Shown piece after piece: positions 8,210 through 61,490 of a DNA stretch of 64,000 nt. Below the pieces are notes generated by a model. The model was not told the origin of the DNA, did not search any database, and was given only the letters and a program-made list of their open reading frames with translations. How positions within the stretch are numbered: the stretch's first letter is position 1; each line of letters opens with the position of its first letter. Origin of the DNA: Halothiobacillus neapolitanus c2. GTDB taxonomy: Bacteria; Pseudomonadota; Gammaproteobacteria; Halothiobacillales; Halothiobacillaceae. The DNA is taken from NCBI RefSeq assembly GCF_000024765.1, contig NC_013422.1:2065501-2129500 (forward strand), read 5' to 3'. The position numbers were made by a program, and so were the translations under genes.

Positions 8210-8824
8210 ATGGATCTCAACGAACTAAAAACCCTGGATTTCCAGACCATCGGTCTCGCGTCGCTCGGGACGCGAATGGTTATCTTCCTTTTTGTCATCG
8301 TATTGATTGTTGGTGCAGTCATTTACTTCGACACCATGCCTCAACGGGATGAGCTTGCTCAAAAGCAACGCCAAGAGGCAAGTTTGCTCGAAACAATTGG
8401 AACAAAACAAAAGTTAGCCGCAAACCTCAAGGCTTATCAGGATCAGCTCAAGGAGATGCAGACTCGTTTTGGTGAGCTGCTCAGACAACTGCCGAACAAA
8501 AGCGAAGCAGAAAATCTGATTATCGATGTTGCACAAACTTCTCTTAAGAATGGCCTTAAGAACCAACAAATCCAACCGGGTCGAGAAATCAAGCACACCT
8601 TCTATGCGGAGATGCCCTACACGCTCACTCTGGAAGGCACCTACAACCAGTTGGCAAAATTCATTAGTGACACGGCAAACCTGCCCAGGATTGTGACTTT
8701 GCACAACCCAACCATCAGGCCGGAAAAAGGAGATAAACCGGACATGAAGTCCCCGCCGCTTGTGATGACCATTGTGACCAAAACCTACCGTTACCTTGAA
8801 CAAGGTGAAGGAGAAGGCAAATGA
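8210..8824 (+). CDS. pilO: Type IV pilus assembly protein PilO
   Basis: 204 aa, bitopic inner-membrane protein. A membrane helix at about residues 23-42 (VIFLFVIVLIVGAVIYF) is followed by a coiled coil rich in E/K/Q (48-90) and a periplasmic domain. The initial MDLNELKTLDFQTIGLA is typical of PilO. It forms a heterodimer with PilN in the alignment subcomplex. The gene starts 3 bases after pilN and overlaps pilP by ATGA, so translation is likely coupled. Confidence 0.93.
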   Translation: MDLNELKTLDFQTIGLASLGTRMVIFLFVIVLIVGAVIYFDTMPQRDELAQKQRQEASLLETIGTKQKLAANLKAYQDQLKEMQTRFGELLRQLPNKSEAENLIIDVAQTSLKNGLKNQQIQPGREIKHTFYAEMPYTLTLEGTYNQLAKFISDTANLPRIVTLHNPTIRPEKGDKPDMKSPPLVMTIVTKTYRYLEQGEGEGK

Positions 8825-12291: not shown

Positions 12292-12308
12292 GGGCACCTC
12301 GAAAAACC
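12292..12308 (+). repeat. Left inverted repeat of the IS5-family element
   Basis: 17-bp terminal repeat, one mismatch (A for T at position 13) against the right end. It shares the core CACCTCGAA with an end of the MITE at 61308-61416. Confidence 0.8.
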
Positions 12309-12366
12309 TCAGTCATGCAATTTTGGGTAAAATTCTCCCATGTGATTGTTTGCGGAGCCGACTGGG

Positions 12367-13404
12367 ATGAAAAAGCGTAGTGCCATTAAGACGGACCTGT
12401 TTGCTGATACCCATCACCGAGATAAGCTTGACACGTTGGGCGACCCCTTGGCAGAAATCGAAGCCTGCATCGACTTTGCCGCCCTGGCGGCAGAAGTCGA
12501 TCGCATTGCGCCGCGGCCCGTCAGTGTTCAAGGCGGTCGTCCGCCGTACCCGACCGAGACCATGGTGCGCATTCTGGTCTTGAAACGCCTGTACAACCTG
12601 TCCGACGAACAGATGGAATACCAACTGCTTGACCGCATGAGCTACAAGCGCTTCTGTGGTCTGTCCCAGGCAACCAACATCCCTGATCGCACCACCGTGT
12701 GGACCTTCGAGAACCGGATCGGCGAAGTCGGAGCCCAGGTCATCTTTGATGGCGTCACCACACAACTCTTGAAGAAGGGCTTTATCGCCCGTGGTGGCCA
12801 GATCATTGATGCTACGCTGGTGCCAGCGCCGAAGCAGTCTTTTTCCAAGGAAGACAAGGAACAGCTCAAAGCGGATGCGATGCCGGCCGACTGGCAACCG
12901 GGCAAGCGCCGTCAAAAAGACCTGGATGCGACCTGGACCAAAAAGCATGGCAAGAGCCAGCACGGCTACAAGCTTTCAGTGAATGTTGACAAGAAGCACA
13001 AGTTCATCCGCAAAATCGTGACGGACACGGCCAGTACCCACGACAGTCAGCATTTCGATGCAGTGATCGATCCGGCCAATACGAGTCGGGATGTCTACGC
13101 TGATCGGGGTTATCCGTCCGAAGAACGCGAACAATGGCTCAAGGCAAATGGATACCGGAACCGGATTCAGCGTAAGGGCAAACGGAACAAGCCGTTATCC
13201 GAAGCTCAACAGGGACGCAACCATCGCATCGCCAAAACACGCGCCAGGGTCGAGCATGTGTTCGGTGCCATTGAGCAGATGGGGGGCAAGCTGCTGCGCA
13301 CCATTGGTCAGGCGCGGGCAAACTTTGCGATGACAATGATGGCGGCCTGCTACAACCTGAAGCGGCTGGCGTATTTCCAGCGAGTGGGCATCACGGCTTT
13401 CTGA
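12367..13404 (+). CDS. IS5-family transposase (DDE type)
   Basis: 345 aa from the ATG at 12367; a TTG seven codons earlier is less likely. The N-terminal DUF772-like domain (about residues 55-130, YPTETMVRILVLKRLYNLSD) is typical of IS5 transposases. The catalytic triad appears as Asp148 (IIDATLVPAP), Asp246 (YADRGYPSE) and Glu296 (ARVEHVFGAIEQ). The frame is intact, so the enzyme may be active. It cuts and rejoins DNA at the 17-bp terminal repeats. Its closest look is to the IS1478-like part of IS5, but I cannot name the exact element. Confidence 0.93.
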   Translation: MKKRSAIKTDLFADTHHRDKLDTLGDPLAEIEACIDFAALAAEVDRIAPRPVSVQGGRPPYPTETMVRILVLKRLYNLSDEQMEYQLLDRMSYKRFCGLSQATNIPDRTTVWTFENRIGEVGAQVIFDGVTTQLLKKGFIARGGQIIDATLVPAPKQSFSKEDKEQLKADAMPADWQPGKRRQKDLDATWTKKHGKSQHGYKLSVNVDKKHKFIRKIVTDTASTHDSQHFDAVIDPANTSRDVYADRGYPSEEREQWLKANGYRNRIQRKGKRNKPLSEAQQGRNHRIAKTRARVEHVFGAIEQMGGKLLRTIGQARANFAMTMMAACYNLKRLAYFQRVGITAF

Positions 13405-13551
13405 CGCCAGAAATGGTTAGAATAGCCGATACCCGAGGCGATTCGAGGTAAAAACGGGGCGGCATCGTCGGAAAAGCGGTGTTTTGCCTGAGAGATTGAA
13501 CAGAATTCGGTCGCTGTCATCATTGCGCGCCGGGATTCATTGAAAACCTCG

Positions 13552-13568
13552 GGTTATTCGAGGTGCCC
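13552..13568 (-). repeat. Right inverted repeat of the IS5-family element
   Basis: Complement of the left repeat with one mismatch in 17. The bases just after it, 13571-13627, include an open frame ending VADGPLYEAGLPK and TGA, which could be the tail of an interrupted gene but is too short to prove. Confidence 0.8.
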
Positions 13569-60131: not shown

Positions 60132-61490
60132 TCATTCTGATCGAAACAGACGTGTATACAGGGTGGTGAGCCAGTGGTGGCGTTGCCAGACCAAATCCAC
60201 ACCGTTATCTATCTCAAAATTGCGGGCTTGGGCCGCGGTGTGCCTATGGGCCGGTTGTCTTTGCGTGAGAAACCGATCGATGGCATCGAGGCTTGCATTC
60301 CATCCGGCAAGATCACCTTCGAGGTAACACCACAACGGCTCGCTCCAGATAAGATGCACCGGACGCGAGGGCGAAACGCCACGGGCAAGCAACTCATTTA
60401 TATCCGGCTGGGAATTCGCAGAGAGAATCACGACCGGGTTATTTGCATCACTGGCGACGTTTGAATGAAGGGCTCCCGCCAGAACGGCTGAGTCGGTATA
60501 GATAAGAGCCCGATCATCATCGCAGATCCGGTCGGTAGCCTTTGGCAATAGTGACTCGGCGGTTTCAACATCCGATGATGAGAACAGCCAAGGGCTACGC
60601 CCCCACACCCAAAGGCTGTTGATTTCGGGACGCGCTTTTTTTGCCCGTTCGGCGTTAACGGGATGGCTATAAAGCCACATTTGCAACTCCGTGAGCCAGC
60701 GCCGGAACGGGCGCAATTCATTACCCGCCAGCAGTTGGCCAATAGGACGATTCAGAGCACAGCCCAACGGCGGCAGATCGACCGTGCCCACCCGTTCGAG
60801 CGCAGTGGCGGTGTACCCCAGATAGTGCCGCCCGCTCGCTGCCGAAAACAGGCTGATGCCATCGGCTTGAAGCCATTGATTCAAATCCGCTTGCAGCGCT
60901 GCCCATTCCTCACGCTCGACATGCAGATAACGCGGCCCCATCAGCACTGCGTTGTCGGTGCCTGCCTGCAAGTGCACCGGCATAATCTGGCTGACGGCCA
61001 CAATGTCGGGATGTTCGGCGAGTGCTGCGCGCAATTCGGCATCCTCCGATAAATCTGCCTGCAATGCGAATGCCGCTGTACCGTGGTCCCTATCCATTGC
61101 GGTAAACCGCGCCAACAGCAGAGCTTCCGGATCATCTTTACAGGCTTCATCTTGGGTTTGTGTTGCTGCCGGCCGCTCCGTCATTCGTTTCATACGACGT
61201 GAACGCAGCGCCACTGACAGCGGTCCGTCGGTCGGCCCATCCGGTGGCCACTGCCAAAGCCGCTCCGGATTCGGCAGGGCAACCTGATGACCCGCCTTTT
61301 GATCCTCGGGAATCTCGAAAAACCCGTCATTCCCGCGCAGGAGGGAATCCAGCGCCTTGATTTTTCTGGGTTCCCGCTTTCGCGGGAACGACGAATCACG
61401 GGTATTTCGAGGTGCCCCCTTATGAGACTTATCCTCTTCAAAACGGGGTTCGGGATGTAATCCCAGGATACTTAAGTGCAGCTTATTCAT
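60132..61490 (-). CDS. RpfE-type-like protein with an in-frame MITE insertion
   Basis: 452 aa. The N-terminus MNKLHLSILGLHPEPRFEEDK and the segment INSLWVWGRSPWLF (near residue 295) resemble the RpfE-type regulatory or phosphoglycerate-mutase-like family, whose function is unknown; I am not certain of the family. Residues about 25-62 (GAPRNTRDSSFPRKREPRK..SLLRGNDGFFEIP) are encoded by the repeat at 61308-61416 and are translated in frame, enlarging the N-terminal part. The rest looks uninterrupted, so the protein may still be made. The DUF2339 gene ends 29 bases upstream. Confidence 0.65.
   Translation of the reverse strand: MNKLHLSILGLHPEPRFEEDKSHKGAPRNTRDSSFPRKREPRKIKALDSLLRGNDGFFEIPEDQKAGHQVALPNPERLWQWPPDGPTDGPLSVALRSRRMKRMTERPAATQTQDEACKDDPEALLLARFTAMDRDHGTAAFALQADLSEDAELRAALAEHPDIVAVSQIMPVHLQAGTDNAVLMGPRYLHVEREEWAALQADLNQWLQADGISLFSAASGRHYLGYTATALERVGTVDLPPLGCALNRPIGQLLAGNELRPFRRWLTELQMWLYSHPVNAERAKKARPEINSLWVWGRSPWLFSSSDVETAESLLPKATDRICDDDRALIYTDSAVLAGALHSNVASDANNPVVILSANSQPDINELLARGVSPSRPVHLIWSEPLWCYLEGDLAGWNASLDAIDRFLTQRQPAHRHTAAQARNFEIDNGVDLVWQRHHWLTTLYTRLFRSE
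61308..61416. mobile_element. MITE-like inverted repeat element, about 109 bp
   Basis: The two halves are imperfect complements: GGGAATCTCGAAAAACCCG then TCATTCCCGCG...GGGAATCCAG on one side, and on the other strand GGGCACCTCGAAATACCCG then TCGTTCCCGCG...GGGAACCCAG. The outer CTCGAA and CCC parts resemble the ends of the IS5-family element at 12292-13568. It has no gene of its own. It looks like a non-autonomous element that the IS could have moved, inserted in frame in the RpfE-type-like gene. Confidence 0.72.

Follow-up and report, generated by a model that had tools for sequence, protein, structure and literature searches.

The window analysed here is a stretch of 64,000 nucleotides of Halothiobacillus neapolitanus c2, positions 2,065,501-2,129,500 of a genome (G000) that consists of one contig of 2,582,886 bp. 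Window coordinates are used for the focal gene and for the insertion sequence, and genome coordinates for the other copies of the element. On the minus strand, an open frame of 452 codons runs from 61490 to 60132 and passes through a 110-bp imperfect inverted repeat at 61308-61417, which reads GGGCACCTCGAAATACCCG...TTTTTCGAGATTCCC on that strand and is 97% identical to the consensus of its family. The initial annotation had noticed a long imperfect inverted repeat inside this frame, and both the repeat and its placement stand; the element ends one base beyond the 61416 then given, and the residues it contributes, put at about 37, number 38 once the target duplication is included. As RNA, either strand of the element is predicted to fold into a long hairpin of -52 to -60 kcal/mol, and Rfam returned no match to it at an E value of 1. 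In gene orientation, the left terminal inverted repeat with its subterminal bases (GGGCACCTCGAAATACCCG...) occupies 61394-61417, and the right terminal inverted repeat, which reads GGGAATCTCGAAAAACC inward, occupies 61308-61324. Between them lie two CGTC-tagged REP palindromes in opposite orientation, the first (CGTC-GTTCCCGC-GAAA-GCGGGAAC-CCAG) at 61366-61393 and the second, which departs from the consensus by one stem base (G to T) and one loop base, at 61325-61352. The element is flanked by a 4-bp target duplication, with the upstream copy AAGG at 61418-61421 and the downstream copy GAGG, one change away, at 61304-61307. The window also carries an insertion sequence of 1277 bp on the plus strand (12292-13568), one of two identical copies, whose frame at 12367-13404 encodes a DDE transposase of 345 aa (PF01609, E 3.6e-31). 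Its proposed membership of the IS5 family was borne out by the match to NF033581 (E 6.4e-92).

The repeat is highly abundant in the genome. A nucleotide search with the focal element gave at least 43 forward-orientation matches with 90-100% identity, a lower bound set by scoring the best 40 of 95 candidates, and a profile made from 20 copies found at least 85 places scoring above 84 bits, likewise a lower bound (150 of 2010 candidates scored), so that the further copies by which the initial annotation had proposed to check the element do exist. For the analyses below we used 84 near-complete copies, which are the 89 aligned placements minus two truncated copies and minus three duplicates found after realignment (two units of a tandem array and one neighbour). 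The median copy departs from the consensus at 5 bases, and 66 of the 84 have a length of exactly 110 bp. At 515450-515834 (L090), four units lie head to tail with a period of about 92-98 bp, neighbouring units having one terminal repeat in common. Two longer variants of 126-127 bp (L116 and L119) show a partly duplicated spacer between the REPs.

Direct repeats of 4 bp flank the copies, being perfect in 50 of the 84 and carrying one mismatch in another 19, with two or more mismatches in the remaining 15. When the left flank of each copy was compared with the right flanks of other copies (1000 trials on 87 rows, the duplicates still being included), perfect matches averaged only 0.75 and never exceeded 5. 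On the same 87 rows, the real flanks matched over 3 bases three times and over 5 or more bases once. No fixed motif is shared by the duplicated words, which are AT-rich. At the focal site, the one copy for which we examined an orthologous site, the gene of the sister species G002 is uninterrupted (...CTCATAAGGATAAA...) and exactly 114 bp shorter, and the 4-bp word is present there in the empty site ATAAGGATA. By its terminal repeats, its 4-bp duplications, its many dispersed copies and this empty site, the 110-bp repeat is a miniature inverted-repeat transposable element (MITE), as had been suggested.

The ends of the MITE were compared with those of the insertion sequence over 24 ungapped bases, with 5000 shuffles for each comparison. 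The right end of the insertion sequence agrees with the left end of the MITE at 20 of 24 bases (shuffles at most 14) and with its right end at 18 of 24 (shuffles at most 15), and the left end of the insertion sequence agrees with the left end of the MITE at 17 of 24 (shuffles at most 15). The fourth comparison, left end with right end, gave 15 of 24 and falls inside the shuffle range, which reaches 16. Three of the four comparisons therefore exceed every shuffle, in keeping with the resemblance that the initial annotation had pointed out. Relatives of the insertion sequence were found at 79 loci in Thauera, Zoogloea, Aromatoleum and others, and the 34 loci that are distinct sites with both ends fitting a strict pattern include 22 with perfect 4-bp duplications, the same length as those of the MITE, which by its ends and duplications can be classed as IS5-type. 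Neither resident copy of the insertion sequence (12292-13568 and L032) is flanked by a matching 4-bp duplication, each having two mismatches. In G001, the nearest sampled relative, at least 20 MITEs occur among the matches listed, and the search for this transposase turned up nothing closer than fragmentary or distant relatives. Because the two resident copies are identical and without duplication, while the MITE copies have diverged, the present insertion sequence may have arrived recently, the MITE having perhaps been spread by an earlier relative. The missing duplications, together with the many MITEs and fragmentary or distant transposases of G001, also suggest that most of the mobilization may be due to a relative of the present insertion sequence rather than to the resident copy. 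The transposase of the resident element itself could be the mover, as the initial annotation had proposed.

We consider it very probable that the element is an IS5-type MITE with a pair of CGTC-tagged REPs, that it is moved by an IS5-family transposase, and that the focal copy is an in-frame insertion. It would be a non-autonomous transposon consisting of two IS5-type terminal repeats around a head-to-head REP pair. Most likely, an enzyme like the transposase of 12367-13404 binds the common ends, and it would then excise or copy the MITE and insert it with a 4-bp duplication, usually at AT-rich sites and mostly outside genes. An insertion of 110 plus 4 bp corresponds to 38 codons, and stop codons are missing from three of the six consensus frames, so that read-through would be possible when a gene is hit. 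In the focal case the insertion would have made a non-conserved linker of the phosphoglycerate-mutase-like protein 38 residues longer, at a time before G001 and this genome diverged. What the data show directly are the ends, the copies, the target duplications, the empty site, the frame and the conservation on either side of the insert; the enzyme concerned, any present activity of it and the translation of the insert are inferred.

The gene itself provides further evidence. The 114 bp keep the reading frame, as had been claimed, and lie between conserved parts of the protein, in which the MITE and its duplication make up residues 25-62. The motif ILGLxPE before the insert and WQWP after it are conserved in the orthologues of the congeners G003, G004, G006 and G008, which are 39-49% identical to the focal protein over the aligned N-terminal pieces, and the stretch between the two motifs varies among orthologues in length and sequence. 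The homologue of G005 has a similar start as judged by eye. The alignment comprised five N-terminal pieces chosen from 30 homologue loci, the starts in G007 and G009 being unsettled; residues 25-62 are absent from the five orthologue N-termini compared (G002, G003, G004, G006 and G008), which agrees with the expectation of the initial annotation, and are present in G001, where the insertion has an identical place. Conserved residues on both sides indicate that the insert lies in real coding sequence, within a variable linker. Relative to G000, dS is about 0.02 for G001, which has the filled site, and 0.24 for G002, which has the empty one; if it was vertically inherited, the insertion dates between the G002 split and the G001 split. 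The protein had no Pfam match at 0.1, and an NCBIfam match that is weak and falls far short of the cut-off hints that it may be a distant relative of cofactor-independent phosphoglycerate mutase.

The insert thus apparently adds 38 residues (25-62) to the protein. The main alternative is that the MITE is not translated, either because translation begins downstream of it or because the gene is dead. There are precedents for the former in the same genome, where apparently in-frame MITEs lie upstream of the likely starts of dapF, of a GDSL esterase gene and of two genes whose proteins have signal-peptide-like starts, and the eight changes over 190 codons between G000 and G001 are too few for a test of selection after the insertion. 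However, the residues preceding the insert correspond to those with which other family members begin (ILGLxPE in G003, G004, G006 and G008), no stop interrupts the frame in either insert-bearing genome (in G001 up to codon 190, where the available sequence ends), and dN/dS between G000 and G002 is 0.38. We therefore regard this alternative as unlikely. Translation of the insert could be detected through the tryptic peptides predicted from it, ALDSLLR and GNDGFFEIPEDQK.

The initial annotation had overlooked that the interior of the MITE is a published REP dimer. CGTC-tagged REPs of H. neapolitanus have been described as CGTC-1 heterodimers by Di Nocera et al. 2013 (PMC3733652), and the MITE consensus has their format in every respect: a CGTC tag, an 8-bp stem, a 4-base loop, a CCA tail and a head-to-head arrangement of the pair. 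According to the sections of that paper considered here, all the CGTC-1 dimers of H. neapolitanus lie within a "41 bp palindrome", which was termed a target, and CGTC REPs are held to have no dedicated transposase, a broad transposase spectrum being left possible. Up to one mismatch, the REP palindrome pattern occurs 163 times in the genome, compared with 2 occurrences of the reversed control; among 100 listed of the 163, 93 are in near-complete MITE copies, 4 in the tandem array, 2 in left-truncated copies and 1 in a shortened MITE at 560318. This shortened MITE (L257) has a single REP, apparently a hybrid of the two, and the duplication GTCA. A second MITE family shares the IS5 ends of the REP-containing MITE but has a different interior without REPs, and comprises three elements: one of 142 bp at 1063446-1063587 (L105) with the duplication TTGG, one of 206 bp at 410418-410623 (L125) without duplication, and one of 227 bp at 1562574-1562800 (L126) with the duplication ATCA. 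Short remnants with these ends occur as well.

These observations bear on how the REP dimers came to be where they are. In the wording of Di Nocera et al. 2013, a REP mechanism would have put the dimers into pre-existing 41-bp target palindromes, and the reported location of every H. neapolitanus CGTC-1 dimer within such a palindrome (PMC3733652) accords with it. However, the 4-bp duplications fall outside the palindrome, the palindrome arms resemble the ends of the IS5 element, REP-free elements are bounded by identical ends, and the sole empty site examined, that of G002, contains neither the palindrome nor a REP, which contradicts the proposal at the focal locus. Nor was a Y1 transposase of the RAYT type, with which a RAYT-mobilized REPIN would be associated, found in the genome (PF01797, 0 matches in G000, compared with matches in 5 of 14 control genomes). 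In view of the empty site and the outside duplications, we rejected the idea that the dimers had entered a target palindrome and hold it to be highly improbable. Because the duplications lie outside, the focal empty site has no palindrome, and REP-free elements have those same ends, the "41 bp palindrome" can be recast as the pair of IS5 terminal repeats, with the REP dimer as the probable cargo of the MITE. The REP dimer is known; what is new is its proposed travel inside an IS5-type MITE as an explanation of its movement, and in the open-access literature we found no paper linking these REP dimers to an IS5 element.

In-frame insertion, in turn, is not a habit of the element, a point that the initial annotation had also missed. 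Empty sites of 34 of the 84 copies are crossed by a mechanically called ORF of at least 100 aa, and the focal copy is the only one of the 84 that can be placed inside a conserved gene, with one more in an integrase fragment. Among the other 33 ORF-crossed copies, 8 were checked with Pfam and 25 were assessed by position or by eye, or left aside, and the in-gene assessment covered copies other than those near gene ends at 8436, 1057862, 1605426, 1632737, 1830847 and 2440908. The non-focal read-through ORFs that were examined seem to prolong true genes on their upstream side, lack a Pfam match, or represent a phage-integrase fragment. Several candidates were rejected on this basis: at 394408 (dapF, recognized by eye) and 12923 (GDSL esterase, Pfam) the MITE lies upstream of the likely start; at 233249 and 605441 a signal-peptide-like start, judged by eye, follows the MITE; and the gene at 899756 is an integrase fragment according to Pfam and was discarded as a conserved gene. 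A MITE just upstream of a gene extends the open frame (L087 of dapF, L075, L081 and L091), and automatic calls could add false N-terminal residues in such cases. We also considered whether the element is adapted to coding. The three consensus frames are still open in 54, 54 and 51 of the 66 exact 110-bp copies, compared with means of 55-57 in a neutral simulation, and a coding-adapted element was rejected as frames are kept only to the extent expected from neutral mutation. A selfish element like the Rickettsia palindromic elements (RPEs), selected for in-frame insertion and peptide coding, is scarcely credible here, for although 38 codons, three of six open frames and the Rickettsia precedents would suit it, a conserved gene was identified around only 1 of 84 copies, three or more open frames also arise in 545 of 3000 mononucleotide shuffles, and the open frames across the copies agree with the neutral expectation. 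There is no evidence for adaptation to coding, and the keeping of the frame is an outcome of the insertion length in an open frame.

IS5-family MITEs have IS5-type ends and 4-bp duplications, carry no transposase gene and reach high copy numbers. The focal MITE differs from them in that a REP dimer makes up most of its interior. This interior is the CGTC-1 heterodimer itself, and the palindrome consensus published in PMC3733652 fits the MITE ends; the difference is one of reading, the palindrome being a target in that account and IS5 terminal repeats with 4-bp duplications outside in ours. Two RPEs, RPE-4 and RPE-6, are CGTC REPs according to PMC3733652, and RPEs are also treated in PMC10969869. 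The likeness between the RPEs as described there and the focal case is that of CGTC-tagged palindromes in frame within a gene; however, RPEs are frequent in genes, with in-frame insertion into protein genes as their mark, whereas this MITE was placed in a conserved gene once in 84 copies and has IS5-type ends. The element QMITE2 of Coxiella burnetii is likewise described in PMC5896051 as a REP-containing MITE that is sometimes in frame in genes, but it has a GTAG REP and duplications of 7-11 nt.

Beyond this genome, profile matches occur in 4 of 10 genomes of the genus, namely G000, G001, G002 (2 copies) and G005 (1 diverged copy). A search pattern in which a REP end adjoins an IS5-type end hit 4 of 369 genomes of the class, 29 times in G000, 3 times in G194 and once each in G301 and G054, with zero matches for the controls in the results shown. 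G194 and G301 belong to one other genus of another family. Their elements (L210, L211, L213 and L215) are full composites that enclose a REP dimer between ends beginning GGGCACCTCTAA, and 3 of the 4 are flanked by perfect 4-bp duplications; the end sequences differ from those of the focal MITE. Searches of G194, G301 and G054 for relatives of the transposase found none. Exact REP dimers of a stricter form, which does not take in the heterodimers of G000, occur in 12 of 398 genomes of the phylum. Sixteen REP-dimer loci from other genomes, judged by eye and by an inverted-repeat score, showed no IS5-like flanks within 45 bases on each side. Two of these, in G433 (L247 and L254), lie in a different long palindrome common to both, possibly another type of MITE. 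Carriage of CGTC REPs by IS5-type elements appears to be recurrent, which is a narrower statement than that it is general. A broader proposal, that CGTC REPs in several lineages were spread by IS5-family transposases and entered mini-elements more than once, free REPs possibly being worn-down cores, would fit the composites of G194 and G301 with their different ends and their duplications. It is at odds with the 16 dimers that showed no IS5-like flanks and with the lack of hits to related transposases in G194 and G301, and we regard it as doubtful.

CGTC REPs occur in many bacteria, and the means of their spread had not been settled in 2013 (PMC3733652). Gene callers may wrongly extend proteins through repeats of this kind. 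The focal locus is a clean case in which a conserved protein has gained a probably translated segment from a mobile element, the age of the insertion being bracketed by the empty site. In the genome of H. neapolitanus c2, CGTC REPs appear to travel inside an IS5-type mini-transposon.
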